A stretch of DNA of 48,969 bases from a virus. Both the position numbers and the translations under genes were made by a program. Numbering within the stretch: position 1 is the stretch's first letter; every line of letters begins with the position of its first letter. Shown piece by piece: positions 1-14,700 of this stretch. Where the stretch lies: positions 1 through 48,969 of IMG/VR virus record IMGVR_UViG_3300042894_002013; one strand, written 5' to 3'. The notes under the pieces were generated by a model, which saw only the letters and a program-made list of their open reading frames with translations, was not told where the DNA came from and searched no databases.

Positions 1-128
1 GTTTCTTCTGGTCTGAAGAACTCCGTAGCCTTTCTAACTATTTTTTCGTCAATAGTTTCTTCTGGTCTGGAGGAATCAGTAGCCTTTCTAACTATTTTTT
101 CGTCAATAGTTTCTTCTGGTTTCTTGAG
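1..128 (-). repeat. 54-bp (18-residue) tandem repeat at the C-terminal side of the muralytic protein
   Basis: Copies start at 1 and 55, with a partial third from 109. The unit encodes RPEETIDEKIVRKAT plus three variable residues, is highly charged and lies after both hydrolase domains. The array may continue beyond the left edge. Confidence 0.85.
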
Positions 129-2273
129 TTTCCTTAACCTAGAATTATCAAAACCTTCAACTCCAGCAAAAGTGAATCCTTCTCCTATAGCAGACAATCC
201 TTGATATAAACCCTCATCAACCACTGATTTAATATTTCCGGGTTTTGTAATATTTTCAAGAGTAGAACCAAAAGCGTCTTTTAGAGTATCGACCAAAGTT
301 TTTTCTTTTGGTTGTTCTTCTGTATCTGTTTGTTGTCCTTTTGGCTTTGCTGCATCTCCAGTACTTGGGGTTTCTTGAGCTAGTTCTGTTTCTGTAGAAC
401 CTATTGAATATTTTTTAAGAATTCCTTCTGCAGCGGAAATCCTTTGGGTCATATTTTCTTTCCCAGCTTTTTCGTATTCTTTCGTCCAAATTTCAGTTGC
501 TTCTTTTGCGGATTTTGCAGACTTTATGCCTTTATAAACATTTCCGTATTCTTTATGTTTTGTTTGTCCTGTTATTTCTTCGTAGATATATTCTAATTGT
601 CCATTAAGGGTGTTCCACTTATCACCTTTTCTAGCTTTCAATTCTTTAAATCTAGGACCATCAACAGACCATTGAGCGATACCTCTCCCTGGACCACCAC
701 CTTTTTGTTTTTGGTTGGGATTGAAGGTGGGGCTTTCTATTTTTAAACTTCCAGTAATACCTGCTGCTTGTTCTTTTGTAAACCCTTTACTAACGAAAAA
801 GTCAAAAACTTTCTTTTCGTTTGATTGTGTTGCTGTTTCTTTTGTTGCAGTTTCTTTTTTTAGCGAGGGGTCTTCTTGGACCTTTTCTGAAGTTTCTTCT
901 TGTTCTTCTTCCTCTTCTATTTCTGACGGTACATTTTGTTGTTGTGCTGTGACACCTTTCTTTTTGATATCATCTGCAAGTTTTGGCGTTTCATTTTGCT
1001 GTACTGGAGTTGTTTGGGGTGTTTGAGGTAAACTAGGTTCTTTATATGCAGACTCACTTTCTTTTTCTGTTGGTCTTCTTATAGCGACCAATTCGTGATT
1101 TTTCTTTTTGGTATTTCTTGTAGATCTTGTTACTCCGCCGCCACCTTTTGTACCTTGATTTCCTCCAATTATAGTAATCATGTTTCCGTCTAAAGAAACA
1201 ACAAAACCGACGTGCCCCTTATTTTTATCTGTACCTCTATTAAATACAGCTATGTCTCCGGGTTTCGCGTCATTTAAATTTACTGCTTCTCCATAAGTTA
1301 AGAAACTTTTTGCACTTTTTACTGATTTTGATTTTTTATATCCATTGGCAGATAAGACAGAATTAACGAATGTTGCGCACCAAGCTTCTGATATCCCAAA
1401 ACCAGAACCCAAATTTGTTTTAAAAAATGCTTCTAATTCTTTTTTGTTTGCCTTTTCTGTCATGCCCTCAAATTTTTCGGCAACTTGTACTAACCTTCCA
1501 GTAGGTGTTGTTCCTGCTCCTGGAGAAGTTTGTTGGGAGCGAGTTTCTGTTTGGGTCCCTGTTGTTGGGGTTGTACCTGTTCCGGTTTGTTCTGCGGTTC
1601 TTTGTTCCTGGTTTTCTCCCTCTTCTTCAAACTCTAAACCTAATGTATCTTTTGCGAATTTCTTCGCCTTTTCCCAAGGAGAGTTATTCATCTCTCTATC
1701 ATCCAACCAATCTATCGCTTTATAGATTCCAGCACCGGCAGCACCAAATAAAAACCCTTTTAGAAGTTTTGGTAATAATGACCCTAATAAACTTCCCAAA
1801 AATCCTTTACCAGTTCCGAACGTTCCTCCTATACCAACACCTTCGGACAATTTTAGAATTCCATTATTCATGGACTCAAAAATTTTATAGAATTTTTCTA
1901 GGTTTTCTTTTCCTATCCCAATCCCACCTGCGGTTTTAGTAACTTCAATGTCCTTTGCTTTTGATTCTAGAAGGTTTTGTGTTACTTGTTGACTCGTTGA
2001 TGTCGTTTCGATATAACGTAAAATGTTATTGTTTAAATCGAATAGAAGCCCTTTAATGTTTTCCAATGCCCTTACCATTGCTTCTCCAAAATAATTCGAA
2101 GAATTCTCTTTTGTTGCAGTAGCGTTGGAAGTAACGTTTTGATTGAGGTTTATGGCTCCATAATTTACTAATTGGAGTTTTCCCGATTGAACCAATGACG
2201 TTAATATTTGCGATTTATCGTCTAAGGATAAATTCCCAATAGCATTTTTGTTGTTTAGTGCTGGTAACGCCAT
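1..2273 (-). CDS. Large tail protein with CHAP-like and tail-lysozyme domains (partial, possible tape measure)
   Basis: This frame is open from an ATG at 2273 to the left edge, giving at least 757 codons with the C-terminus missing. From the N-terminus I see an Asn/Thr-rich helical region, then a glycine-rich hydrophobic stretch around residues 150-185 that could be a membrane-seeking helix. A Thr/Gln-rich linker follows. Residues about 275-405 match the TIGR02594/CHAP type of peptidoglycan amidase or endopeptidase, with Cys299 in AWCATFVN, His354 in GHVGFVV and Asn372 in GGNQG. After a Glu-rich linker, residues about 485-622 match phage tail lysozyme (PF18013 type), with likely catalytic Glu513 in KIESP and a GIAQW motif. 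The tail has 18-residue tandem repeats. It follows gp26 and a small ORF, where a tape measure is normally encoded, so it may set tail length and carry wall hydrolases. A hub-bound lysin is the alternative. The domain calls are firmer than the role. Confidence 0.8.
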   Translation of the reverse strand, partial: MALPALNNKNAIGNLSLDDKSQILTSLVQSGKLQLVNYGAINLNQNVTSNATATKENSSNYFGEAMVRALENIKGLLFDLNNNILRYIETTSTSQQVTQNLLESKAKDIEVTKTAGGIGIGKENLEKFYKIFESMNNGILKLSEGVGIGGTFGTGKGFLGSLLGSLLPKLLKGFLFGAAGAGIYKAIDWLDDREMNNSPWEKAKKFAKDTLGLEFEEEGENQEQRTAEQTGTGTTPTTGTQTETRSQQTSPGAGTTPTGRLVQVAEKFEGMTEKANKKELEAFFKTNLGSGFGISEAWCATFVNSVLSANGYKKSKSVKSAKSFLTYGEAVNLNDAKPGDIAVFNRGTDKNKGHVGFVVSLDGNMITIIGGNQGTKGGGGVTRSTRNTKKKNHELVAIRRPTEKESESAYKEPSLPQTPQTTPVQQNETPKLADDIKKKGVTAQQQNVPSEIEEEEEQEETSEKVQEDPSLKKETATKETATQSNEKKVFDFFVSKGFTKEQAAGITGSLKIESPTFNPNQKQKGGGPGRGIAQWSVDGPRFKELKARKGDKWNTLNGQLEYIYEEITGQTKHKEYGNVYKGIKSAKSAKEATEIWTKEYEKAGKENMTQRISAAEGILKKYSIGSTETELAQETPSTGDAAKPKGQQTDTEEQPKEKTLVDTLKDAFGSTLENITKPGNIKSVVDEGLYQGLSAIGEGFTFAGVEGFDNSRLRKLKKPEETIDEKIVRKATDSSRPEETIDEKIVRKATEFFRPEE

Positions 2274-2274
2274 T

Positions 2275-2406
2275 TTAGTTCCTATTTTGACTTAGTTTTT
2301 CGTTTTCTTCGTTAATATGTTGTAATAATAAATTCAAAAACACTTCTCTTTCCCACGGGATCATATTTTCTAGTTCAGATAAACTATATTTGTGATGTTG
2401 CATCAT
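2275..2406 (-). CDS. Small gp51/tail-chaperone-like ORF, probably expressed by -1 frameshift from gp26
   Basis: From the ATG at 2406 this ORF encodes 43 residues, starting MMQHHKYSLSELENMIPWER and ending in a Glu/Asn-rich helix. The same frame is open upstream through LSHDNLENYYKTNFA into the 3' end of gp26. No Shine-Dalgarno-like sequence precedes either in-frame ATG (2406, 2403) or the TTG at 2436, so independent initiation looks weak. The frame is -1 relative to gp26 and joins it at a slippery heptamer, giving a predicted 299-residue fusion. The PWERE segment with a charged helical tail resembles small tail-assembly proteins found after gp26 in marine T4-like phages. T4 also has gene 51 after 26, but T4 gp51 is about 249 residues, so I do not claim homology. 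The stop at 2275-2277 is 1 base from the next start codon. Confidence 0.7.
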   Translation of the reverse strand: MMQHHKYSLSELENMIPWEREVFLNLLLQHINEENEKLSQNRN

Positions 2407-2453
2407 TGCAAAATTTGTTTTATAATAGTTTTCCAAATTATCATGAGAAAGAG

Positions 2454-3173
2454 TTACCCTAAAAAATTATCAAGACCTACAATATCAATATCGTGTACAA
2501 ACCCACATTTAGAACATTTTACCGTTAGGGTTTCTTTTAATACTGGTAAATTGCTGAAAAATTCTTCTACCTTTTTAAATTGATCAATAGACATAGATTC
2601 TAAAAATTCTAATACCTCTGATTTTGGCGTTTCGTTTTTGTAATAGAAATTTTGTTCGTCGAATATGTAATCTAATGAGTTATAAATTACCTCTAATGTT
2701 AGGGTAACGGCGTCAGTAATTTCAGTATTCAATTTAGACAATTCTGCAATATCAGGATATTTCATTTTAAACCCAACACTATCCGTTAATCGAATTATGT
2801 CGTTATTTTCTTTTTTGTCTACAGAAACTTCTAATAGGTTTATAGAAACCGGCATTAAGTTCCCGCAAATATTTTCTTCTATTTTATTATTGCATCTATA
2901 TTTTGTTTCTACAATTTCTCCAATAGACCTTGCTCTAAGTTGTAGGAAAAAGTATTCTATGTCTATTTGATTGAGTTTGTTAACGTCAATATCTGAGGTA
3001 CAACAATTTTTTATTATTTGTTTAATATTATTTAAAGCGAATTCTGCGTCTTCAGATTGTTTTGCTAGTAATAGAATTTTTTGTTCTTTTACTAGGAAAG
3101 GTCTAAACATAACCGTTTGATTTGAAATTGGTAATGTCGTTTCATACAAAGGACTTTCGATTTTTGGTAACAT
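2454..3173 (-). CDS. gp26: Baseplate hub / tail assembly protein, T4 gp26 family
   Basis: This 239-residue protein resembles the T4 gp26 family (T4_baseplate, PF12322); T4 gp26 is 208 residues and is needed for baseplate hub assembly. The N-terminus MLPKIESPLYETTLP, a region around residues 10-60 on folding and capacity (FRPFLVKEQKILLLA) and the helical C-half are typical. Two cysteine pairs, CNN...C near residue 95 and CSKC near residue 220, suggest a small zinc-ribbon-like element; metal binding is inferred. It starts 14 bases after the gp54-like gene and its final codons contain the slippery heptamer, so it is probably made as both a short form and a frameshifted fusion, as seen with tail assembly chaperones. 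Confidence 0.82.
   Translation of the reverse strand: MLPKIESPLYETTLPISNQTVMFRPFLVKEQKILLLAKQSEDAEFALNNIKQIIKNCCTSDIDVNKLNQIDIEYFFLQLRARSIGEIVETKYRCNNKIEENICGNLMPVSINLLEVSVDKKENNDIIRLTDSVGFKMKYPDIAELSKLNTEITDAVTLTLEVIYNSLDYIFDEQNFYYKNETPKSEVLEFLESMSIDQFKKVEEFFSNLPVLKETLTVKCSKCGFVHDIDIVGLDNFLG
2457..2468 (-). promoter_or_regulatory. Predicted programmed -1 ribosomal frameshift site (T TTT TTA)
   Basis: Read on the minus strand in the gp26 frame, the codons are AAT TTT TTA GGG TAA. Bases 2466-2460 form T TTT TTA, a canonical X XXY YYZ heptamer, one sense codon before the gp26 stop. A tandem -1 slip gives AGG GTA ACT CTT and continues 61 codons to 2275 without a stop. An AGG about 13 bases upstream might act as a Shine-Dalgarno-like stimulator. 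I see no obvious downstream hairpin. Confidence 0.6.
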
Positions 3174-3187
3174 AATTTACTCCATGA

Positions 3188-3865
3188 TTAAAATACTGGG
3201 AATGGTATAGATCCACCTAAAGGAATTGCTGCGTTGTAGTATGTGTATGCAAAAGTTACTGTTAGTTTATGTATTGCGTTACCATTTTCCCAAGAAAGGG
3301 GCATTTCGTTTAAAGATATTGGAAATGCGTGAAACAAACCAACCCAATACGATGGGTCGTTTTTTACGTTATATTGCGTGATTAATATAAATGCTTCGTA
3401 TTGATTTTTATATTTAAAATCGTAGTTTACTACTGGACCGTCAGTAAATAGACCAACAACGTCTTCTATTCCTATTTGGAATGGGAAAAAAGACGCGTTT
3501 GAAATATAATTCATCCAATATTCAAAAATCCAACGTTCAATCATATTGTCTGAGCAAATAAAAGTTAGGTTTATTTTGTTATATGAATTTTGTATTGGGT
3601 GTAGGATTTCTGGACCGTATAACTTTTGCGTAACCGCAGAAAATGTCCTTGATGGTAATTCTGCCGCTTCGCAGTGAAATTTCATTTTTTTCCAAGCAGA
3701 AGCTGGGTCTTCTCCGTCAAGACCTGCAGCCGCCATCAAATCCAAAGCAAAAACCGGATTTGTTGGGGTGATCATAACGTCAAAGTTACAGGGTCTTGCT
3801 ACTTCCGTTTTAGAGAAAGTTTCAAGAAAATTTCTTATATCTGAGTTATATTTTATTTCGCTCAT
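3188..3865 (-). CDS. gp54: Tail-tube-fold protein, gp54-like baseplate tube initiator
   Basis: The 225-residue protein has the tube-protein fold signature of the T4 gp19/gp48/gp54 group: FDVMITP near residue 28, a CEAAELPSRTFSAVTQKLYG loop, FICSDNMIERWIFEYWMNYI, and a C-terminal strand series ending in FTYTYYN-like and PFPVF sequence. T4 gp54 (320 residues) polymerises under gp48 to start tube growth, and gp19 (163 residues) forms the tube. The position among baseplate genes and the intermediate length favour gp54, but a minor tube protein cannot be excluded. Its ATG overlaps the upstream stop as ATGA at 3862-3865, showing translational coupling with the gp2-like gene. Confidence 0.7.
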   Translation of the reverse strand: MSEIKYNSDIRNFLETFSKTEVARPCNFDVMITPTNPVFALDLMAAAGLDGEDPASAWKKMKFHCEAAELPSRTFSAVTQKLYGPEILHPIQNSYNKINLTFICSDNMIERWIFEYWMNYISNASFFPFQIGIEDVVGLFTDGPVVNYDFKYKNQYEAFILITQYNVKNDPSYWVGLFHAFPISLNEMPLSWENGNAIHKLTVTFAYTYYNAAIPLGGSIPFPVF

Positions 3866-4605
3866 CTTTTATATTTCTTCCAAACTTTTGAATTTGATTG
3901 TTTTTGCATATCTGCTACTGGTAGGTTTGCGGCAAATAACCATTCGTGCGCTTCTACTGGCAGTATCCTACTTTTAACATTAGATTTAAGATACAGTTTA
4001 ATACAATATTCTTTTAAATCTTTATAATTTTTAGACCTTTTAATGATCTCATAACTTATATTAGAAACTAACATATCGTTCTCTTTTATGTATTGAGATT
4101 TGCTTGCTATTTCTGCTATAATCAAAGATCTAACTTCATAGGGTAAATAGTGTATATTCACCCCAAGAAAATGCGAACCTTTATTTTCTAATAAAATTAT
4201 CAGGGGAAATTTATCCCAATAAGGCAATGTATCTTTATATTTTGCGTCATAAGAAAAGAAAAACATTCCTCCCGGATAAAAAACCTTTTTCTTTATTATT
4301 TTGTCCAGTTCTGGAGCGTTAGATTTTAAAGCCTTTACTTTTAAATTTAACCAACCCATCGATTGACTCGCTAGAGCAGATCTTTCTGCTGGAGAAGCGT
4401 TTTTAAACCTCTCATACATAGAAGGTAATTTTCTTTGTTTAAAGAACGCTTCATTTAATTCTTCTTGGTTTGTTGCATACCTTCCTGGAGAATTTGTAAA
4501 TGTTAATTCTGCCCAAGCGCCAACCCCCATAAAAAACGGGTTGAAAATATATTTTTTGCCTTTTAATTCAACAACATGCCATTCCGAATATTTTGTATTG
4601 TCCAT
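3862..4605 (-). CDS. gp2: Probable gp2-like DNA end protector / head completion protein
   Basis: This 247-residue protein has a family block around residues 110-155 (FFFSYDAKYKDTLPYWDKFP followed by FLGVNIHYLP) that I recognise from proteins annotated as T4 gp2-type DNA end protectors in T4-like phages. T4 gp2 is 274 residues; it caps packaged DNA ends and protects them from host RecBCD. The C-terminal half is helical and Lys-rich, ending in VWKKYKR. The neighbouring gp4 gene supports the call, since T4 has the order 3-2-4-53. The ATG at 4605 follows an AATAAATA-like stretch at about 4609-4617. The identification rests on motif memory and synteny. Confidence 0.62.
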   Translation of the reverse strand: MDNTKYSEWHVVELKGKKYIFNPFFMGVGAWAELTFTNSPGRYATNQEELNEAFFKQRKLPSMYERFKNASPAERSALASQSMGWLNLKVKALKSNAPELDKIIKKKVFYPGGMFFFSYDAKYKDTLPYWDKFPLIILLENKGSHFLGVNIHYLPYEVRSLIIAEIASKSQYIKENDMLVSNISYEIIKRSKNYKDLKEYCIKLYLKSNVKSRILPVEAHEWLFAANLPVADMQKQSNSKVWKKYKR

Positions 4606-4622
4606 GGACTATTTATTGAATA

Positions 4623-5060
4623 TTAAAAGATGTCTTTTTCTGTAAGAAGTTTAAACGTCCAACCCCTATGTCTGCAATATTCTTTTGCTGCCGCCCATTT
4701 AGCAGAATTTACTCCCCAAGTACAAACTTCGTTAATATACGTTTTGGTTACTCTTTTCTTTATTTTTGGTTCTATAGTTTGAGCATAAGGTTTTACTTCT
4801 ATGACATAAGTTTCTATAGAACCGTCTAATTTTTTAACTTTTGCTAATATATCTGGAAAGTATCTGTGTTGTCTGTTGTCTACTGGAGAAATATAATTTA
4901 TTACCAATTCTTCAGAACCCCAAGATAAAACGTTTTCGTTTTTATCCAACCACTTAAAAACTCTCAGCTCCCAGGAAGAGCGATAAATTACGTTATGAGG
5001 GTCTCCATGATATTTTTCTGGATTCTTTAATTTATAAATACCCTGTTTGTAATTAGACAT
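4623..5060 (-). CDS. gp4: Head completion nuclease gp4
   Basis: The 145-residue product matches the T4 gp4 (gp50/65) head completion family, which shares a TnsA-like PD-(D/E)xK nuclease fold. Visible elements are the GDPHNVIYRSSWE block near residues 19-31, Asp70 in YFPDI, and Glu88 and Lys90 in IEVKPY, which fit the PD...ExK active site. The C-terminus AKEYCRHRGWTFKLLTEKDI is typical. gp4 is thought to act on packaged DNA ends or the portal so that the tail can join. It is the first gene of the leftward unit, 50 bases from the divergent gp48 gene. Confidence 0.88.
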   Translation of the reverse strand: MSNYKQGIYKLKNPEKYHGDPHNVIYRSSWELRVFKWLDKNENVLSWGSEELVINYISPVDNRQHRYFPDILAKVKKLDGSIETYVIEVKPYAQTIEPKIKKRVTKTYINEVCTWGVNSAKWAAAKEYCRHRGWTFKLLTEKDIF

Positions 5061-5110
5061 CTAAAGTTCAATATAAATAATATTATTTAGTAGATTCGTA
5101 GGAATTTCTT
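5061..5110. promoter_or_regulatory. Divergent intergenic promoter region with T4-type late promoter
   Basis: This 50-base gap separates the leftward gp4 unit from the rightward gp48 unit. The plus strand holds an exact T4 late -10 octamer TATAAATA at 5072-5079, 32 bases before the gp48 ATG. On the minus strand CTAAATAATA at 5090-5081 is a weaker late-promoter-like sequence ahead of gp4. T4 late promoters are read by sigma factor gp55 with gp33 and the sliding clamp; use of that system here is inferred. Confidence 0.7.
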
Positions 5111-6136
5111 ATGGCAATGCCTTCATTTTTAGCTGCAAATCCTCTAGCTTCTTTAGACCCAGAAACTTTGATCCTAGAAGGTTTAGAAGCGTTTAGTCCT
5201 GGGGGTGTGTTTCCCAGTAGAAATGTTGGTATGTATGACTTTATATCGTTAAAATATCCAGAAGATATAGAACATTATTTTATGCATGGGCATTATATAA
5301 ATTTTTACGTGAACGCTCCAGTTTGGGGTAAATATTGGGAAAAAGACGGAAAAACAGGAATTTCTTCTTATTCTTATGAAGGTATGCCAGAAGTTGGTGG
5401 TTTACTTGGTTCTATCGGTATTACTTCGAACGGATATTCTATAAAGGAAGTTGAACGCGACGGGACTCCAATCAAAGACCCAACTTCTGCTGCTGGCGCT
5501 GTAAACCATATTAGAACCCAAAGGATATCCCAAGCGATTTCGCTTTATATTCCAGATACTATGTCGTATAGTTCGCAAATACAATACGAACACACTTCCG
5601 CTAGACAAATGGGCGCTTCTTTGTTAAATTCTTTGGATAAAACCCTTTCTGGTTATCTTAGTAAGGTAACTAACAGTAAATTGGTTCAAGGTATTTCTGG
5701 CGCTATGAACCTTTTGGAAAACCTTGGTAAAATTGGTGGAGTCACTGTAAACGATCAAATGTTGGTTCTTTTTAGGCAAGTTGGTTTGCGAGAATTCTCA
5801 TACGATTTTTTCTTCACCCCAAAAAGTCCAAAAGAAGCAGAGTCAGTACAGCAAATAATAAGAGCGTTTAGGTTTCATGCTCATCCGGAGGCAGTATTAG
5901 ATTATGGTTTATTTTATATTGCTCCTGGAACTTTTGATATAGAGTTTATGCACAGGGGTTCTAGAAACACTAAAATACATCAAGTTTCCACTTGCGTTCT
6001 TACTGGGTATGACGTGGATTACGCTCCAACGGGTTGGTCAACCCACGTAGATGGTATGCCCATACAAACAAGAATGTCTTTACATTTTACTGAGACTCAG
6101 GTTGTGACTAAGCAAGATATTGAAGCAGGTTACTAA
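5111..6136 (+). CDS. gp48: Baseplate tail tube cap gp48
   Basis: The 341-residue protein matches T4 gp48 (364 residues), the cap that binds the baseplate hub and nucleates the tube. The C-terminal two thirds has the tube-like fold: VLFRQVGLREFSYDFFFTPK near residue 219, a run on AFRFHAHPE, and HQVSTCVLTGYDVDYAPTG near residue 298, typical for gp48. The N-terminus has a long loop with NVGMYDFISLKYPED. It opens the rightward operon behind a TATAAATA promoter. The stop TAA at 6134-6136 abuts the gp53 ATG at 6137. Confidence 0.85.
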   Translation: MAMPSFLAANPLASLDPETLILEGLEAFSPGGVFPSRNVGMYDFISLKYPEDIEHYFMHGHYINFYVNAPVWGKYWEKDGKTGISSYSYEGMPEVGGLLGSIGITSNGYSIKEVERDGTPIKDPTSAAGAVNHIRTQRISQAISLYIPDTMSYSSQIQYEHTSARQMGASLLNSLDKTLSGYLSKVTNSKLVQGISGAMNLLENLGKIGGVTVNDQMLVLFRQVGLREFSYDFFFTPKSPKEAESVQQIIRAFRFHAHPEAVLDYGLFYIAPGTFDIEFMHRGSRNTKIHQVSTCVLTGYDVDYAPTGWSTHVDGMPIQTRMSLHFTETQVVTKQDIEAGY

Positions 6137-6979
6137 ATGTCAAATTTCTTTTATTTTTACCCTAGTATTGTTTACAATAAACAAATAGTTACAGACCTGC
6201 TTGTTAGAGCAAAGGTTAGGGAATCTTGGTTAAATGATCCAAGAATATATTACAATTATAAGTATAAGGATTCTGATAGACCAGAACACTTAGCGCACAA
6301 GTATTACGGAGAAGAAGAATTACACTGGGTTATTCTATTCACGAATAATATTTTTGATGCGAATTGGGATTTCCCAATAGATTATTATACTTTCAACAAA
6401 TATATTGAAGACAAATATAAAGAACAAGGGTCTATAGTTAACAAAACTGGATTGGCATACGCCCAAACAACCCCTGACCCGATATATAGATACCAAAAGA
6501 CAGTTACTATAACTACAAGCGAAGGGATATCTAAAAGAAATTATGTTATTGACGAAAAGTCGTACAGAGAACTAGAATTTACCAATACTTATTCTACTGG
6601 AACCCCTTATACAATTTATGCGGAATCGGAATTAAATTCTTACCAATTAACACTTAATGCTGGCTCCGTATTAAATGTTGGGGATATATTAATCGGTAAT
6701 GAGTTTATACCAAATTTTGCTAAAGTTGAATCTATTGATTCTGCGAACAGTTTATTTAATATAACTATACCAGCAAAAAGTAGTGAAACTAATGGGAAAA
6801 TATTTATCTATAATTCGCAATCTAATTATAGTATATATGAAGTTTCAAAAAAATACCCAGAAATAACTATCTATGATAGAGAAATGGAAATAAATGAATC
6901 TAAAAGAAACGTTAAAATTTTAGATAAAAATTACATACGAAAGGCTCAAGAAGAATTTCAACGATTGATTAAACAATAA
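6137..6979 (+). CDS. gp53: Baseplate wedge gp53, with an inserted beta module
   Basis: The 280-residue product has the gp53 (PF11246) N-terminus: YFYPSIVYN, RPEHLAHKYYGEEELHWVIL and NIFDANWDFPIDY within the first 85 residues. gp53 joins the wedge to the hub and carries a LysM-like end; here the C-terminus INESKRNVKILDKNYIRKAQ fits that end. T4 gp53 has 196 residues. The extra length lies at about nucleotides 6630-6815, where GDILIGNEFIPNFAKV matches a VGQ-V-G-IP-T-V type beta module also present in the gp7-, gp8- and gp10-like proteins of this window. The gene is 2 bases from the hub gene. Confidence 0.88.
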   Translation: MSNFFYFYPSIVYNKQIVTDLLVRAKVRESWLNDPRIYYNYKYKDSDRPEHLAHKYYGEEELHWVILFTNNIFDANWDFPIDYYTFNKYIEDKYKEQGSIVNKTGLAYAQTTPDPIYRYQKTVTITTSEGISKRNYVIDEKSYRELEFTNTYSTGTPYTIYAESELNSYQLTLNAGSVLNVGDILIGNEFIPNFAKVESIDSANSLFNITIPAKSSETNGKIFIYNSQSNYSIYEVSKKYPEITIYDREMEINESKRNVKILDKNYIRKAQEEFQRLIKQ

Positions 6980-6981
6980 TT

Positions 6982-8478
6982 ATGGCAGAAATTACAGATA
7001 ACGCAGTAACTCAACTTAATGGTTTAGAATTATATAAGTGTCAGATTTTATCTGCAGAAAATAAAATCATAGACTTAAAACCAACTTTGGTTGAAATTAA
7101 CTATTTTGAGGATATATTTTCTAACGCCACTTCTGGTAATATAGTTTTAAACGACTCTGGTGGTTTGCATAACGCTTATTCTTGGTGCGGCGACGAGTTT
7201 GTACTTTTGGAATTCGACAAACCCGGAAATTTAGATAAAAATAAACGGTTTCGTGGGATGTTTAGAATATTTAAAACTCAAGGAAGGCACTTAACTGGAA
7301 GAGAATTTAACGAAACCTTCGTATTACATTTTTGTTGCGAAGAAGAATTCCTTTCAAATCGGATGCAGTTAAATAAATCTTATAAACAAATGAGAATATC
7401 TGATATCGTAAAAGATATCGCTTTAAATGTTTTGAAAATTCCAAAAGATAAATTTCCAGACGCTAATATTGAACCCACTTTTGGTAAGTATGATATAGTA
7501 ATTCCGAATATGAGACCCCTTGAAGCTGTTGCTTGGTTATGTACTATGGCGATTGCTGATAATAGTTCTGGTTCTCATGGTGGTCCAGAAGGTGGTGCGA
7601 CATACCTATTTTATAAGAACAGGTATGGTTGGAATTTTAGATCCATACTATCAATATTTAATAATATCCCTAAATTTGAATATAAAAGCCCGTTCAAAAA
7701 AAGTAAAAACACTTCTGGGTATTGGTATGGTACTAAGAACCTTTCTCCAAAAGAAGATATGAATTTTGATTTCGACCCCTTTGAGCAGATTATATCATAT
7801 CAAATTGTAGATAATCACGACGCAATGGATATGATGCAAAGCGGGATGGTTTCAAATAAACTTATTGCTATTGATTATTTAAGAAGAACTCACGAAGAAA
7901 AGGTATTTGATTATGAAAAATACTTTAATAATCATTTGGCAAAAAAAGTTGAAATGTATAAGACCTATAATAAAAACCCTATTCTTAGTAACGCAGAAGA
8001 TAGATTTAAGAAAAAACATAACGAATATCAACCAGTAGTAAAAATTGCTCCATCAACGACAAACCAAAAAAATAATCCATATATAAAAGAAAGACAGCCA
8101 AATATACCTCAAAATTTTGTTGAGAATACCATCCCGTACAGATTTGCTCAATTGGGGTTGATAAATTTCAATAGGTTAAAATTGCTTATATCCGGAGACC
8201 CATATATTGCCGTTGGTAACATAATTTATGTACATTTTCCGCAAGCAAAAGAAGAAAAAGGTACAAAACCTTTGGATAGGTTTTTGAAGGGTAGGTATTT
8301 GGTTTCTGCAGTTAGACAAAGGTTTGATCAAGGTGTTTATGAAACGGTTTTAGAATGCGTAAAAGACGCTTATTGTGGACAAGTAGAAGCGAGAACTAAC
8401 GTTCAAGGATTAAAACCTTTTGACAATAGTAATAATGTTATAATACAGGTCCGTTCTGATAATTATAAATGGTGGTGA
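6982..8478 (+). CDS. gp27: Baseplate hub protein, gp27-like
   Basis: The 498-residue protein looks like the gp27-type hub that forms a trimeric ring between tube and spike. Support includes the N-terminal LYKCQILSAENKIIDLKPTL strand region, an EIDIVFEDIF-type tube-like domain in the first 120 residues, and the IPNMRPLEAVAWLCTMA segment near residue 175, frequent in hub domains. The C-terminal barrel includes GDPYIAVGNIIYVHFPQAK and FLKGRYLVSAVRQRFDQG, common in hub-like proteins. It precedes the gp5-like spike, the expected pairing. T4 gp27 is 391 residues; the extra length is in the middle and the C-terminal part. Confidence 0.82.
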   Translation: MAEITDNAVTQLNGLELYKCQILSAENKIIDLKPTLVEINYFEDIFSNATSGNIVLNDSGGLHNAYSWCGDEFVLLEFDKPGNLDKNKRFRGMFRIFKTQGRHLTGREFNETFVLHFCCEEEFLSNRMQLNKSYKQMRISDIVKDIALNVLKIPKDKFPDANIEPTFGKYDIVIPNMRPLEAVAWLCTMAIADNSSGSHGGPEGGATYLFYKNRYGWNFRSILSIFNNIPKFEYKSPFKKSKNTSGYWYGTKNLSPKEDMNFDFDPFEQIISYQIVDNHDAMDMMQSGMVSNKLIAIDYLRRTHEEKVFDYEKYFNNHLAKKVEMYKTYNKNPILSNAEDRFKKKHNEYQPVVKIAPSTTNQKNNPYIKERQPNIPQNFVENTIPYRFAQLGLINFNRLKLLISGDPYIAVGNIIYVHFPQAKEEKGTKPLDRFLKGRYLVSAVRQRFDQGVYETVLECVKDAYCGQVEARTNVQGLKPFDNSNNVIIQVRSDNYKWW

Positions 8479-8481
8479 TGC

Positions 8482-9249
8482 ATGGAAAAAACTAAAAATT
8501 TCCCTGGGATGGATGGGTTTATTTGGTGGACTGGTATAGTAGAAGACCGTAAAGACCCTTTGAAAGTTGGTAGGGTTAGGGTTAGAATTTTTGGTTGGCA
8601 TAAAGACGATAAATCAAACGTTCCTTCTGACGGTTTATTATGGGCGCAACCTGTTATGTCGGCAAACGCATACCAAATTTCTCACGTACCAAAGGAAGGA
8701 GAAGTTTTGTTTGGGTTTTTTATGGATGGAGAATACGCGCAAGTACCGTTTTATATGGGGGTAATTCCAAATATACCAGAAATAAGGTATCCTAAGGAAA
8801 AAGGTTTTGCAGACCCAGCAACAGAAGAAGAAATAAAACAAAGACCAAGAACATTGCATTCTGGACAAACGAGATATCCTGGAGACGGAGAATTAAATCA
8901 GCCAACAATTAGCAGGTCTGCTAGAAACGAAAATATGGATCAAACGCCATATGGTAAGTCTCATGGAGGGAAATATCCATATGTATTTTCAATACAAACT
9001 GAATCTGGGCATTATTTGGATTTAGACGATACTCCAAACGCGGAAAGGGTTACTTTAATTCATAGAACTGGAAGTTTTATTTCTATAGATTCTGGAGGAA
9101 ATATCACCATTTCGGGTAAAAATGTTAATATAATTGCGACTGGTTCCATAAATAATAAAGCTCCTGGCGGCATTAATGAAGATACTCCGAATCACAAAAC
9201 TACAGGTACTCACACAGATGCTATTGGTATACACTATAGCGGGGGCTAA
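8482..9249 (+). CDS. gp5: gp5-like baseplate spike, OB-fold without lysozyme
   Basis: The 255-residue protein begins with an OB-fold gp5 N-terminal domain: WWTGIVEDRKDPLKVGRVRV, then WAQPVMSA and FGFFMDGEYAQVPFYMGVIP through about residue 100. A linker leads to a beta-strand region (SGHYLDLDD, then ISIDSGGNITISGKNVNI) resembling the start of a triple-stranded beta-helix needle, ending in a Gly/His-rich tip. T4 gp5 (575 residues) has a lysozyme domain between these parts; no such domain is present here. Wall digestion is presumably done by the double-hydrolase protein at 1-2273. The C-terminal THTDAIGIHYSGG may bind a PAAR-type tip or metal (inference). Confidence 0.87.
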   Translation: MEKTKNFPGMDGFIWWTGIVEDRKDPLKVGRVRVRIFGWHKDDKSNVPSDGLLWAQPVMSANAYQISHVPKEGEVLFGFFMDGEYAQVPFYMGVIPNIPEIRYPKEKGFADPATEEEIKQRPRTLHSGQTRYPGDGELNQPTISRSARNENMDQTPYGKSHGGKYPYVFSIQTESGHYLDLDDTPNAERVTLIHRTGSFISIDSGGNITISGKNVNIIATGSINNKAPGGINEDTPNHKTTGTHTDAIGIHYSGG

Positions 9250-9259
9250 TAAATAATAC

Positions 9260-9652
9260 ATGCAAAATAAAGACATAATATACTCGGACTTAGACCTAAT
9301 GTTTAACATACATCCTGTTAAACAAGATTTGGTTATGAGTATAAACGAGAAGGCAGTAATTCGTTCTGTTAGAAATTTGGTTCTTACAAACCATTACGAA
9401 AGACCGTTTCAATCTGAAATAGGGTCAAACGTTAAGAAAATGTTGTTTGAACCAATTACTTCTCTTACAGAAAATTACATTCAGAGAGAAATTTATAATG
9501 TTGTAACAACTTTTGAACCCAGAGCAAAAAATGTTTTTGTTCAAGTTAAAGGTTATCCTGACGAAAACGCATTACGAGCAAATATTGTATTTTATATAGA
9601 AAATTCAACGACACCAGTTGTAGTAGATATGCTTTTAGAAAGATCAAGATAG
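9260..9652 (+). CDS. gp25: Baseplate wedge gp25
   Basis: At 130 residues the protein is the same size as T4 gp25 (132). It has the family HPVKQDLVMSINEKAVIRSV start, the HYERPFQSEIGSNVKKMLFE block near residues 46-64, and the EPR motif at residues 86-88, which interacts in the wedge core at the sheath initiation site. gp25 sits with gp6 and gp53 around the hub and primes sheath assembly. It starts 10 bases after gp5 and precedes gp6, as expected for wedge genes. Confidence 0.92.
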   Translation: MQNKDIIYSDLDLMFNIHPVKQDLVMSINEKAVIRSVRNLVLTNHYERPFQSEIGSNVKKMLFEPITSLTENYIQREIYNVVTTFEPRAKNVFVQVKGYPDENALRANIVFYIENSTTPVVVDMLLERSR

Positions 9653-9662
9653 GAAAAAATAA

Positions 9663-11750
9663 ATGGCAACCTCTAATTCTAATTTAACTCTTGTGGGGAC
9701 AGATTTTGATCAGATCAAAAGTAATTTATTAACTTTCCTTAGAGGTCAAGATGTTCTAAAAGACGCAGATTATACTGGTAGTGTTCTTCAAACTTTATTA
9801 GACGTTTTAGCGTACAATACCCATTATAATGCCTTCTATTTGAATATGGTTGCTAATGAAATGTTTTTGGATTCTGCCGTTAAAAGAGCTTCCGTAATAT
9901 CGCATTCGAAAATGTTAGGGTATTTTCCAAGATCTGTTGTTGCTCCTACTGCCACAATTAAATTAACCATTACTAATTATGAACTACCGTCTATAACTAT
10001 TCCTAAATTTACAAAATTTATATCAGAGTCTGTTGATGGTGTTAACTACGTTTTTATGACCGATAAAGAATACGTTGTTAATAACGATCCAAATAATAAC
10101 CCTAATACTGCTATAGTAATAGCAGACGTTATAGTAAAACAAGGAGAACCAGTACAGTATACATTCACGTATAATTTAAAAGAAAACCCAAAGGGTATAT
10201 ATAAAATACCAGACGCAAATATAGACCTAAGCACACTCCAAGTAATAGTCCAAAAGTCTCGGTTGGATTTTTCTTCTGTTTCTTTTTATACGGGTTCTAC
10301 TGAAACTTTGTCCATAACTCCTGAATCAGAAATTTATTTCGTTCAAGAATCTATGGATGGTTTTTATGAAATTTACTTTGGTGATGGAGTTCTTGGTAAA
10401 CAATTAGAAAACGGTAATGTTGTAATAGTTTCCTACATAACGTCTGATGGTAGTATTGCAAACGGAGCTAAAGAATTCACTATTGTGGGGGGTAACGAAC
10501 AGCTTGCTTCTGGCATCATAAGCGTTGAAACTACTAGTCCAGCCTTTGGAGGCAGAGAAAAAGAATCTATTGAGTCAATAAAATTTATTGCTCCAAAATC
10601 ATACTCGGCGCAAAATAGGGCAGTAACGAATCAAGATTATATGACCCTATTGAATAACAATAATTATGGGTTTATATTTGATTCTGTTAATGTTTGGGGT
10701 GGACAAGAAAATGATCCTCCTGTGTATGGTCAAGTTTTTGTTTCTCTAAAACCACAAGGAGGTTACGCTTTAACAACATCTCAAAAAGAAATTGTGAAAA
10801 CAAAGTTGATTAAACCTTTGAATGTAATTACTGTTGAGCCTACTATTATTGATCCAGACTACACATATATTAAATTAGAAATAGATGTAATATATGATTC
10901 CAGAAAAACTATACTGAGCGTTGGTGAACTTGAATCTAGAATAAGAACTTCCATACAAGAGTTTTCAAGAGAAACTTTAAACTCTTTTAATTCTACATTT
11001 AGTTACCCGGATTTAATGTTCGCAGTTCAGAACGCTGATAATTCTATCGTGACCAACGAAATAGACGTAACCCTTCAAAAGAAGTTCTTACCAAGTTTAG
11101 AAGTAGCCACAACATATGAATTAGAGTTTGGAAGCGTATTGGAGAGGGGTATATTATTTTCTGGTATAACTTCTTCTCCTTCTATGCAATATTATGATAG
11201 ACAAAATTCTTATGCCGTTATTGATGGGATATACCTTGAAGAATTGCCTTCATATTCTGGGGGTGTTGAATCAATCGATATTGTTAATCCCGGATTTGGA
11301 TATAAAACAAACCCTTCAATAAAAATAGTTGGTGATGGGTCTGGCGCTAATGCGTATTCTATAGTTGTTAATGGTTCTTTGAGCAAAATTGTTGTTGATA
11401 ACCCCGGAGCGAATTATTCTCAGGCAATTATTGAAATTGAGGGTGGTGGTGGAAATCTGGGTCAAGCAACAGCAACACTACAAGGTAGGTATGGTACTAT
11501 AAAATCTTATTATTACAATAAGAAAAATATAAAAACTTCTTTTGATGAAAATGTTGGCGTTGTTGATTATTATACTGGAAAAGTAACTCTAACAGATTTT
11601 AATCCTTTGAATGTGAATAACCCATTGGCACAATTAACTTTGACGGCAAAACCTCAATCTAACATTATAAGTTCCAGTAGAAATAGAATATTAACTATAG
11701 ACCAGTTTGACCCTTCAGCAATAGTGATAAACATCAAAGAGAAATCCTAA
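9663..11750 (+). CDS. gp6: Baseplate wedge gp6
   Basis: The 695-residue product matches gp6 (T4, 660 residues; J-like fold), which forms the hexagonal iris of the baseplate. The N-terminal GSVLQTLLDVLAYNTHYNAF and NEMFLDSAVKRASVISHSKM blocks (residues 35-80) are highly characteristic. The middle has the J-domain strands ending near SAQNRAVTNQDYMTLL around residue 320. Near residues 535-615 (nucleotides 11263-11500) it carries a GxGY-type beta module with two half-repeats, also present in gp8-like and larger proteins here. The stop TAA shares a base with the next ATG (TAATG at 11748-11752), so translation is coupled to the gp7-like gene. Confidence 0.9.
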   Translation: MATSNSNLTLVGTDFDQIKSNLLTFLRGQDVLKDADYTGSVLQTLLDVLAYNTHYNAFYLNMVANEMFLDSAVKRASVISHSKMLGYFPRSVVAPTATIKLTITNYELPSITIPKFTKFISESVDGVNYVFMTDKEYVVNNDPNNNPNTAIVIADVIVKQGEPVQYTFTYNLKENPKGIYKIPDANIDLSTLQVIVQKSRLDFSSVSFYTGSTETLSITPESEIYFVQESMDGFYEIYFGDGVLGKQLENGNVVIVSYITSDGSIANGAKEFTIVGGNEQLASGIISVETTSPAFGGREKESIESIKFIAPKSYSAQNRAVTNQDYMTLLNNNNYGFIFDSVNVWGGQENDPPVYGQVFVSLKPQGGYALTTSQKEIVKTKLIKPLNVITVEPTIIDPDYTYIKLEIDVIYDSRKTILSVGELESRIRTSIQEFSRETLNSFNSTFSYPDLMFAVQNADNSIVTNEIDVTLQKKFLPSLEVATTYELEFGSVLERGILFSGITSSPSMQYYDRQNSYAVIDGIYLEELPSYSGGVESIDIVNPGFGYKTNPSIKIVGDGSGANAYSIVVNGSLSKIVVDNPGANYSQAIIEIEGGGGNLGQATATLQGRYGTIKSYYYNKKNIKTSFDENVGVVDYYTGKVTLTDFNPLNVNNPLAQLTLTAKPQSNIISSSRNRILTIDQFDPSAIVINIKEKS

Positions 11751-14700
11751 TGATAAAAACTTCTCTATTAGTACAACAGCAATTACCTAGTTTCGTTAGG
11801 GAAGATGATAACTATCAGAATTTTGTTGCTTTTATAGAATCTTATTATGAATGGTTAGAACAAGATTCTAATGTATTAAGCGAATCTAAAAAAATACAAG
11901 AATATATTGATATTGATTCTACCGTTGAAAAATTCGTTGAATATTTTTATTCAACGTTTATGCCAGCATTTCCAAAAGATGTTATTACAGACAAAAGAAA
12001 ATTATTAAGGTTCTCAAAAGAACTTTATGAAAATAAAGGAAATAGAGCGGCTTATAAATTTCTATTTAGATGTTTATATAATGTTGATTCTGACGTATAT
12101 GAAACTAAAGAATATGTAGTAAAAGCGTCTGCAGGTAAATGGTTTTTACCTAAATCTGTTAAAATTAAATCCAATGATTCTAGGTGGATCAATGCTGAAA
12201 ATTTGTTTATTTTCGGTGATATTTCAAAGTCTTTGGCTAAAATCGAAAGGGCAAAGGTTGTAAACGATAGGGTAGAGATATTCATATCCGACATACAAAG
12301 GTTGTTCCAAACTGGAGAATTTGTAAAAGTAGTTGACGTAAACCTCCAAAACGTTTATTTTGATGTTGAAGGTAATATAGTAGAAGAAGGGGAAATATTA
12401 GAGGGAAAACTATTAGGAACTATATCTTCAGTTGACGTTAATCGAAATTATAGAGGTAATTATTATTTATCGGGCGACCCGGTCGTTTTTTACGAAGGAT
12501 TAGAAGAGGAAACTTCTGATATTGGTGCTGTTGCTGAAGTCGGGGAAGTTACTTTGGGTGCTATACAGCGCGTAAAAGTTGAAGAGGGATCTTATGGTTA
12601 TAGAGAACATCCCAACACATTTATTTTTGTAACTCCCGATTCCGGTAAACCTATATTAACGGTTGGTGCTATAAATCCAGCAAATACGTCAAACGTGACA
12701 ATGATGGTTGCGGATTCTTTGGAATTGAAAGAAAATATTCCACTAAATTGCAACGTTTTTACTGGGTTCCCAATAAGCAATACTCTTAATTATAATTTCT
12801 CAAGAACATTAGCAAATTCTTTAATATGTAATGCAAATACGGTTATGGCGAATGCATTTACGTTTAGAGAATTTTCGACGTATTCTATTGATACAGTTAT
12901 TGTTCAAAATGGTGGTGGTGGATTTAGAACAATTCCCACCATATCCGCCGAATCAATGTATGAAACGGATTTGCCGTTTGGAATGGGGGATGAATACGAC
13001 CCTAGATACACTCCAGCAGCAAATACGGTAACGTCTATCAAAAATTTTGGTATTCTAGGACCAATCCTTATCAGAACAGACTCTTCTGGTAATAGAAAAC
13101 GAGGAGTTGGCTACAAGGTAGGGGACGAAATACTATTTTCTGGTGGTCTTGGTGGAGGGGCTTTTGCAAACGTTACTTCAGTATTATCTGGAGGCGAAAT
13201 CAACACCGTTTCTTATTATACGTCCACAAACAACCCTGCCCCTTTAGGCGGGTTTGGATATTCCAACGGAGAATTGCCTTACGTTTACGTTAAACCAACG
13301 GAAACTTCTGCTAGTATTTCTAGCAATAATGTACTAAGGGTTTCTAGTTCTTTTGTTACTGGAAATGTTTTAGTGGGGCAAACTGTTTCTGGTAATGGTA
13401 TTCCTGTTACAACAACCGTTATAAATTCATATTCTAATGGTTGGGTAATATTATCTAATAGCGCGACAGGAACCTATGTATCCAACACTTATTCTTTTGT
13501 TGGAACCGGAGCAGACTTATACGTCAGTACTGTACTTGGCGATGGAGCAAAGCTGGTACCAATTACAGATAGAATTGGTTCAATAACAACAATAAAAATT
13601 ACCAATTTTGGTGAAGATTATATTTCTGCGCCAAAAGTTTCTCTAAAGGTTCAGGATATCGCTGTAAGTAACGTAAGTTTGTTATATGTACCTCAAAAGG
13701 GAGACATAGTATATCAAGGAGCCAATTCTACTAGTTTTACTTATAAGTCGTATGTTGATTCTATTAATAGAATCACGTTTGACGAAAATTCTGAAACATC
13801 TACTTATATACTAAGGGTTTATAATTATAATAAACTTCCAAACCCTAACGCAGAATTAACTCTACAAAAAACCAAAATAATAGAACCAAATACATATCCA
13901 ATAACTATAAAAACCGACTATGTTTTCCCTAGAAAATTTTTACCAGACGGAACTTCTCAGATAGTTGGTAAAGACGGTATATTAACTTATGGTGATGGTA
14001 CTGCTAAAGCAAATTCTAAATTCTTAAACGGACTGATACTTGGTTCTGGAAGATATATTGATGAATCGCACCAACCAAGTTCTTTTTCTGTTCTGGAAGA
14101 TGAAAACTACAATAATTTTACTTATGTCGTTTCTGTTGAAAAAGACATCTCAAAATATAGAGATATTCTATATGAAAGTATGCATCCTTCTGGAACCAAG
14201 GTAATTGGTCAAGCGGTAATAAAGAACGAAGCTAACTCTGAAATAGAATTAAAAGAATCAACTTATGTAAATTATATTGACGATTTTGAATATATATGGG
14301 CTGCGTTGGCTACTGAAGAAGTTGCCGAAAACGAGTTTAATTCTGAATTAATGCGATTCCCAGAATCAATTTCCAAATATGCAACGCTTGATTCTAATAA
14401 TTCCAATATGTTGCGGTTGTCTACATTCCCCAATATTTCTAAAGACCAAAACATATATGGTGCTGGAATTCTTTGGGACACTAAAATAAAATCTGTTAAT
14501 ATTGCAAACAGCAGCATAATTTTAACAGAAAACGCTACTGAAAACCAAAACAATACTTTATTGCTGGTTATGGATAATTGGTCTGGATCGGATAATAAGT
14601 ACATATTACCGCACCAATTGATTCTATGCAATACTTCTAGTAATAGTAATGTTGTGGTAATAAGAACTTCTTCTAGTAGCAATTTAACGTCTGATTTGAT

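Follow-up and report, generated by a model that had tools for sequence, protein, structure and literature searches.

A conserved slippery heptamer at the end of gp26 points to a frameshifted tail assembly chaperone gene in an uncultured T4-like phage lineage

In phage lambda, a slip near the 3' end of a gene in the tail block yields gpG, a short protein, and gpGT, the same protein with a -1 extension; neither product is present in the virion (PMC5009743). A -1 frameshift on a poly-T tract near the 3' end of the TAC-N gene has also been described for phage Adele (Vandenendeviridae), and the same source states that an extension of this type is routinely annotated as a hypothetical gene (PMC12846349). 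Among T4-like phages, T4 gp26 and gp51 are listed in a review as hub assembly chaperones (PMC3004832), and Vladimirov, Gautam and Davidson (2022, Virology 566:9-15) are credited with identifying T4-like chaperone genes. Papers that cite their work state that some T4-like phages have one short and one fused long chaperone gene (PMC10885494) and that the TAC-N genes of T4-like phages are known to contain poly-T slippery sequences (PMC12846349); on the basis of these statements in citing papers, we treat the frameshift principle in T4-like chaperones as known. Among the literature matches listed, which were searched by title and abstract opening and which mostly did not extend to subscription journals, none concerned a gp26 frameshift in cyanophages or in the lineage described below.

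The locus studied here lies in a stretch of viral DNA of 48,969 nucleotides (IMG/VR record IMGVR_UViG_3300042894_002013), referred to as the window; all of the features discussed are on its minus strand. No near-identical DNA was found for positions 1 to 12000 of the window among the phages searched. The gp26-like gene (2454..3173) encodes 239 residues, which we regard as the short form (TAC-N), and matches PF12322 (T4_baseplate; 174 bits against a curated cutoff of 24.5, E = 4e-51) and phrog_150 (E = 5.5e-56). Its 3' end reads GAT AAT TTT TTA GGG TAA, in which the heptamer T TTT TTA (2460..2466) is in frame: the first T is at 2466, TTT at 2465-2463 and TTA at 2462-2460, and one sense codon, GGG (2459-2457), separates it from the TAA stop (2456-2454). 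From AGG (2460-2458), the -1 frame is open for 61 codons and closes with a stop whose last base is at 2275, so the extension occupies 2275..2463, stop included, and the predicted products have 239 residues and 238 plus 61, or 299, residues. The position of the heptamer and the sizes of both products, as called in the first-pass annotation, were reproduced from the sequence. The locus resembles lambda G/GT in gene plan; it differs from the lambda system in its T TTT TTN site, in the 239-residue length of gp26 and in belonging to a T4-type tail. Adele shares with it the poly-T tract near the TAC-N 3' end, but Adele is a member of another phage family and its motif is GTTTTT.

Relatives of the locus were collected by searches with gp26 as the query, from annotated phages, and in a separate, biased set with the -1 ORF as the query. 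Seven of the 214 loci lacked a complete gp26 stop and were excluded; 201 of the remaining 207 carry the heptamer, although the 207 include (by subtraction) 79 loci fetched with the -1 ORF. These 79 were left out of the 103 gp26 clusters that were formed at 90% identity. The gp26 scans retained the 80 best among at least 599 candidates, which biases the sample toward close relatives; 16 of the clusters are annotated records, nine of which were picked through hits in the -1 ORF search. With sites accepted up to 17 codons before the stop, an in-frame T TTT TTN was found near the end of gp26 in 98 of the 103 clusters, comprising 87 of the 87 formed by gp26-found loci plus the window and 11 of the 16 annotated records. 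In the remainder of the gp26 genes, the same in-frame motif occurs at only 17 of 22,238 codon positions, and Phe-TTN pairs there are slippery in 17 of 219 cases. At the end of the gene the picture is reversed: 99 clusters have a Phe-TTN pair at the last codons, and in 98 of them the pair begins with TTT preceded by T, the remaining one reading G TTC TTT, as in RB55. The A-site codon over the 98 clusters is TTC in 55, TTT in 37, TTA in 5 and TTG in 1. One contig found through the -1 ORF (L107) has AGT GTT TTC where its relatives have AGT TTT TTC.

The five clusters without the heptamer are RB55 (T4 group), phiAS4, Thanatos-1 and two members of the Ackermannviridae; the first three have a separate full-length gp51. 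Later records, among them Ah1, LPCS28, X1, K567, Phi_10 and leB, fall outside the 103 clusters, and here gp26 carries T TTT TTC in Ah1, LPCS28, X1 and K567; the motif is absent in Ackermannvirus Phi_10. The combination of heptamer and -1 ORF was found in Kyanoviridae, in the Straboviridae nt-1, Ah1 and LPCS28, in Vibrio phage K567, and in phages of Stenotrophomonas, Xanthomonas, Ochrobactrum, Sinorhizobium and Rhizobium.

In all 98 clusters that have the heptamer, the -1 frame is open beyond it; it is closed by a stop in 93, with an ORF of 53 to 80 codons, and is cut by the contig end in 5. A continuation in the +1 frame was rejected, as that frame has a median length of 5 codons and a maximum of 29. 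A profile of the -1 peptide recognizes 96 of the 98 peptides, although it was built from 12 of the same peptides or their kin; the two that it misses are a distant relative (L048) and a peptide that is cut short (L180). Substitution in the -1 frame is coding-like from the slip point: over codons 1 to 17, the change at the first, second and third codon positions is 0.40, 0.32 and 0.57 (85 sequences), and over codons 1 to 13 of the 34 sequences that have no start codon there it is 0.45, 0.36 and 0.54, a modest third-position excess. These patterns suggest that reading of the -1 frame begins at the slip point. Comparison with relatives had been proposed in the first-pass annotation as a check on the frameshift, and the heptamer and the open -1 frame both proved to be conserved.

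The homology of the two parts of the locus to T4 proteins indicates what they encode. T4 gp26 belongs to the same family (PF12322) as the gp26 of the window, and its end falls at approximately the same point as that of the short form. For the -1 peptide, the match is to phrog_634, "baseplate hub assembly catalyst" (gp51; E = 2.2e-27), and it starts at the first residue of the peptide, at the slip site; the matching region is the C terminus of T4 gp51, and a structure model of the peptide is helical (pLDDT 81). T4 gp51 matches PF12322 just as gp26 does, and it alone continues into the phrog_634 domain. It consists of a gp26-like protein to which the -1 domain is joined in frame, a composition that is supported by profile alignments (probabilities 74 and 76, E about 3e-5); unlike the arrangement in the window, the two T4 proteins are encoded by separate genes.

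Structural modeling is consistent with a chaperone role for gp26. In the AlphaFold2 model (pLDDT 93.3), the N-terminal part (residues 1 to 86) gave as the top four of 663 aligned chains 3fgx (Z 8.1, 85 residues, 3.6 Å), the HK97 tail assembly chaperone 2ob9 (Z 7.2, 83 aligned of 107 residues, 3.8 Å), YqbN (3klu; Z 6.7, 84 residues, 3.7 Å) and 5ir0 (Z 5.5, 83 residues, 4.1 Å), after which the score drops to 4.2; Z values under 8 can be coincidental, according to the warning of the comparison tool. We take YqbN and 3fgx to be chaperone relatives. The superposition with the HK97 chaperone and YqbN is at 11% and 7% sequence identity, respectively, and gp26 differs from both in having some 150 further residues. 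A Foldseek search of the model against the PDB gave nothing significant (best E 0.65; 2ob9 at E 3.1), so the tail assembly chaperone fold of the N-terminal domain is suggestive rather than proven. Sequence searches of solved structures returned one hit for the gp26 profile (E 0.64) and none for T4 gp51, and the named top matches in a BFVD search with the gp26 model were baseplate hub or gp26 proteins.

The neighborhood is that of a tail gene block. Upstream of gp26 lies a gene resembling tail tube or baseplate tail tube initiator proteins (3188..3865; phrog_45, tail tube, E = 1.7e-28), followed in order by gp26, the -1 ORF and a gene with tail lysozyme domains. The last of these (1..2273) encodes CHAP and Phage_lysozyme2 domains and has 757 residues within the window and 884 in locus L003. 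It is possibly a tape measure protein with cell wall enzymes as cargo; its tape measure match (phrog_9570) covers the lysozyme part only, and among four downstream genes of relatives, one has a weak tape measure match. Repeats of EETIDEKIVRKAT occur near its end. The earlier suggestion that gp26 and its neighbor form the chaperone pair of this tail draws support from the T4 gp26/gp51 homology and the gene order and, less firmly, from the fold.

Upstream of the heptamer, the window contains a weak Shine-Dalgarno (SD)-like stretch, GTAGGTC (2474..2480), 8 to 14 nucleotides away, with an anti-SD pairing energy of -3.1 kcal/mol. Many relatives have a GGAGGG-like sequence at this position: 94 of the 98 loci have G at -11 and 92 have it at -10, the mean anti-SD energy at offsets -16 and -15 is approximately -6.6 kcal/mol (98 loci), and 64% of the loci reach -6 or lower, compared with 12% of 490 control positions. 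Part of this signal reflects an amino acid constraint (LEG). Codon choice goes beyond this constraint, since GAG is used for the Glu at -14 to -12 in 50 of 70 cases versus 475 of 2,227 elsewhere (P = 2e-18) and the pairing is stronger than that of synonymous shuffles (-7.0 versus -5.2; P = 3e-10), although the loci are related and these P values overstate their independence. The SD-like codon choice is under selection in the relatives and is weak in the window. Internal SD sequences of this kind stimulate -1 slipping in Escherichia coli dnaX. Downstream of the heptamer, the folding energy of the region from 5 to 65 nucleotides has a mean z of -1.5 (96 loci); in a positional scan, the deepest values are at 0 and +15 after the heptamer (-0.68 and -0.87), other offsets range from +0.11 to -0.42, and the hairpins differ between loci. 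The window has no stable downstream hairpin (z of +1.1 and -0.9 in two computations). Given its weak SD pairing and the lack of a hairpin, the slip rate in the window may be lower or may rest on the heptamer alone.

The conserved heptamer, the open -1 frame and the gp51-like extension support the -1 frameshift on the lambda G/GT plan that had been predicted from the window, and we consider it very probable that gp26 and its -1 extension form a tail assembly chaperone gene of this plan that is expressed by slipping. Most ribosomes would stop at the TAA at 2456-2454 and release the 239-residue short form. A minority would slip back by one base on T TTT TTA, with both tRNAs re-pairing in the -1 frame, and would thereby bypass the stop and add 61 residues to give the 299-residue long form (TAC-NC). 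In the relatives, slipping is probably made more frequent by the SD-like stretch approximately 10 nucleotides upstream and, in some, by a hairpin just downstream. The lambda system suggests by analogy that the tape measure protein would be coated by many copies of the short form and a few of the long form, which would bring tail tube subunits to it.

The alternative that survives best, although we regard it as improbable, treats the -1 ORF as an independent small gene (gp51), translated from its own start codon or by reinitiation after gp26. It is annotated in this way: of the 15 annotated records with the heptamer and the -1 ORF, 12 have a CDS for this ORF alone and three have no CDS there. 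A start codon overlaps the gp26 stop in 10 of the 98 clusters, and the Ackermannviridae loci L236 to L238 have the junction TAATG with no heptamer. Five loci (L043, L048, L050, L052 and L219) combine the heptamer with a start overlapping the stop (TAATG or TGATG) and may therefore yield the C-terminal part both in fused form and as a free protein. In the window, however, the -1 frame first offers a start at TTG 2436 and then at ATG 2406, neither of which has an anti-SD match within 20 nucleotides upstream (+0.6 and +1.6 kcal/mol, respectively), and independent initiation of the -1 ORF is disfavored there. For comparison, the corresponding energies are -5.9 kcal/mol for the gp26 start (ATG 3173) and -4.2 kcal/mol for the next gene (ATG 2273). 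Two other neighboring genes gave -3.3 (ATG 3865, with poor spacing) and +1.0 (ATG 4605); an SD is not universal among the genes of the window, and because the gene starting at ATG 4605 also has none, its absence from the -1 ORF is weak evidence. The earlier statement that the -1 ORF lacks a plausible ribosome binding site therefore holds as an observation but carries little force as an argument. Across the relatives, the first ATG is more than six codons past the slip point in 72 of the 98 clusters; 61 have some start codon (ATG, GTG or TTG) within the first 13 codons of the -1 frame and 37 have none, yet the peptide is conserved from the slip site. A separate gene would also leave the in-phase heptamer and the SD-like codon choice upstream of it unexplained.

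Transcriptional slippage on the T run, producing a fusion mRNA directly, is a still weaker candidate. The window has a run of six T, and the relatives with T TTT TTT have seven; six is short for slippage by RNA polymerase. In addition, 98 of the 99 Phe-TTN junctions keep the preceding T in phase, and an upstream SD-like element would act on ribosomes. The idea that a recent frameshift mutation or a sequencing error has split one long gene can be dismissed, since the stretch from 3173 to 2275 is unchanged in four IMG/VR contigs and the junction is unchanged in two more that are cut at the end (six of the six contigs examined), which makes a sequencing slip unlikely, and the arrangement is common to 98 of the 103 clusters.

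Other members of the family obtain a short and a long protein differently. In RB55, gene 26 (208 residues) and gene 51 (249 residues) are divergent, on opposite strands; a two-sequence comparison of the proteins gives a match with E = 1e-5, both match PF12322, gp51 alone continues into the phrog_634 domain, and the end of gp26 has no T TTT TTN. In Cronobacter phage leB (L218, a Pseudotevenvirus), the long (gp51) and short (gp26) genes lie in tandem on one strand (1501-2794), an arrangement that could be an intermediate of duplication. Phages of the T4 group thus encode the long and the short form as two genes, where the lineage of the window would use one. In an unrooted tree with long branches, four gp51 copies group together (100/99) and four short copies do so weakly (79/10).

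The Ackermannviridae examined retain the -1 ORF without the classical heptamer; the link between the ORF and slipping is thus not universal. Their gp26/-1 ORF junction is TAATG in L236 to L238 and TAATT, which offers no normal start, in L221 to L235. Among four representatives, nucleotide identity is 0.56 to 0.74 up to 15 nucleotides before the stop, 0.80 over the last 15 nucleotides, and 0.82 to 0.97 from the stop to approximately 100 nucleotides beyond it. The C-terminal part may be made in these phages through a stop-start arrangement or an unrecognized signal.

What is described here is not a new mechanism. Our analysis adds the lineage of the window and the statistics on conservation, both of which may overlap with the 2022 paper of Vladimirov et al., as well as the upstream element and a likely explanation for the short gp51 of cyanophages. 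That cyanophage gp51 is short was reportedly noted by Sullivan et al. in 2010. The gp51 proteins of cyanophages and marine vibriophages are described as lacking the N-terminal ~200 residues that other T4-like gp51 proteins have, and cyanophage gp51 as having approximately 20% of the length of the others (PMC3037559). A gp26 that supplies the missing residues via the frameshift would explain this shortness. A joined CDS is marked in none of the 15 annotated records that have the heptamer and the -1 ORF, and their annotation could be corrected.

In conclusion, the window very probably encodes the chaperone pair of an uncultured T4-like phage lineage, and our data indicate that the protein called "gp51" in these phages is the C-terminal end of a frameshift product. 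On a broader reading, to which we give about an even chance, one chaperone family has arrived at three solutions to making a short and a long form: T TTT TTN slipping with an SD-like stimulator in the kin of the window, the Kyanoviridae and Straboviridae such as nt-1 and Ah1; duplication in the T4 group and leB; and a TAATG/TAATT split in the Ackermannviridae. The first two of these solutions may already be covered by the 2022 paper. If this reading is true, these phages would offer a natural set of variants with which to probe the function of the short-to-long chaperone ratio.
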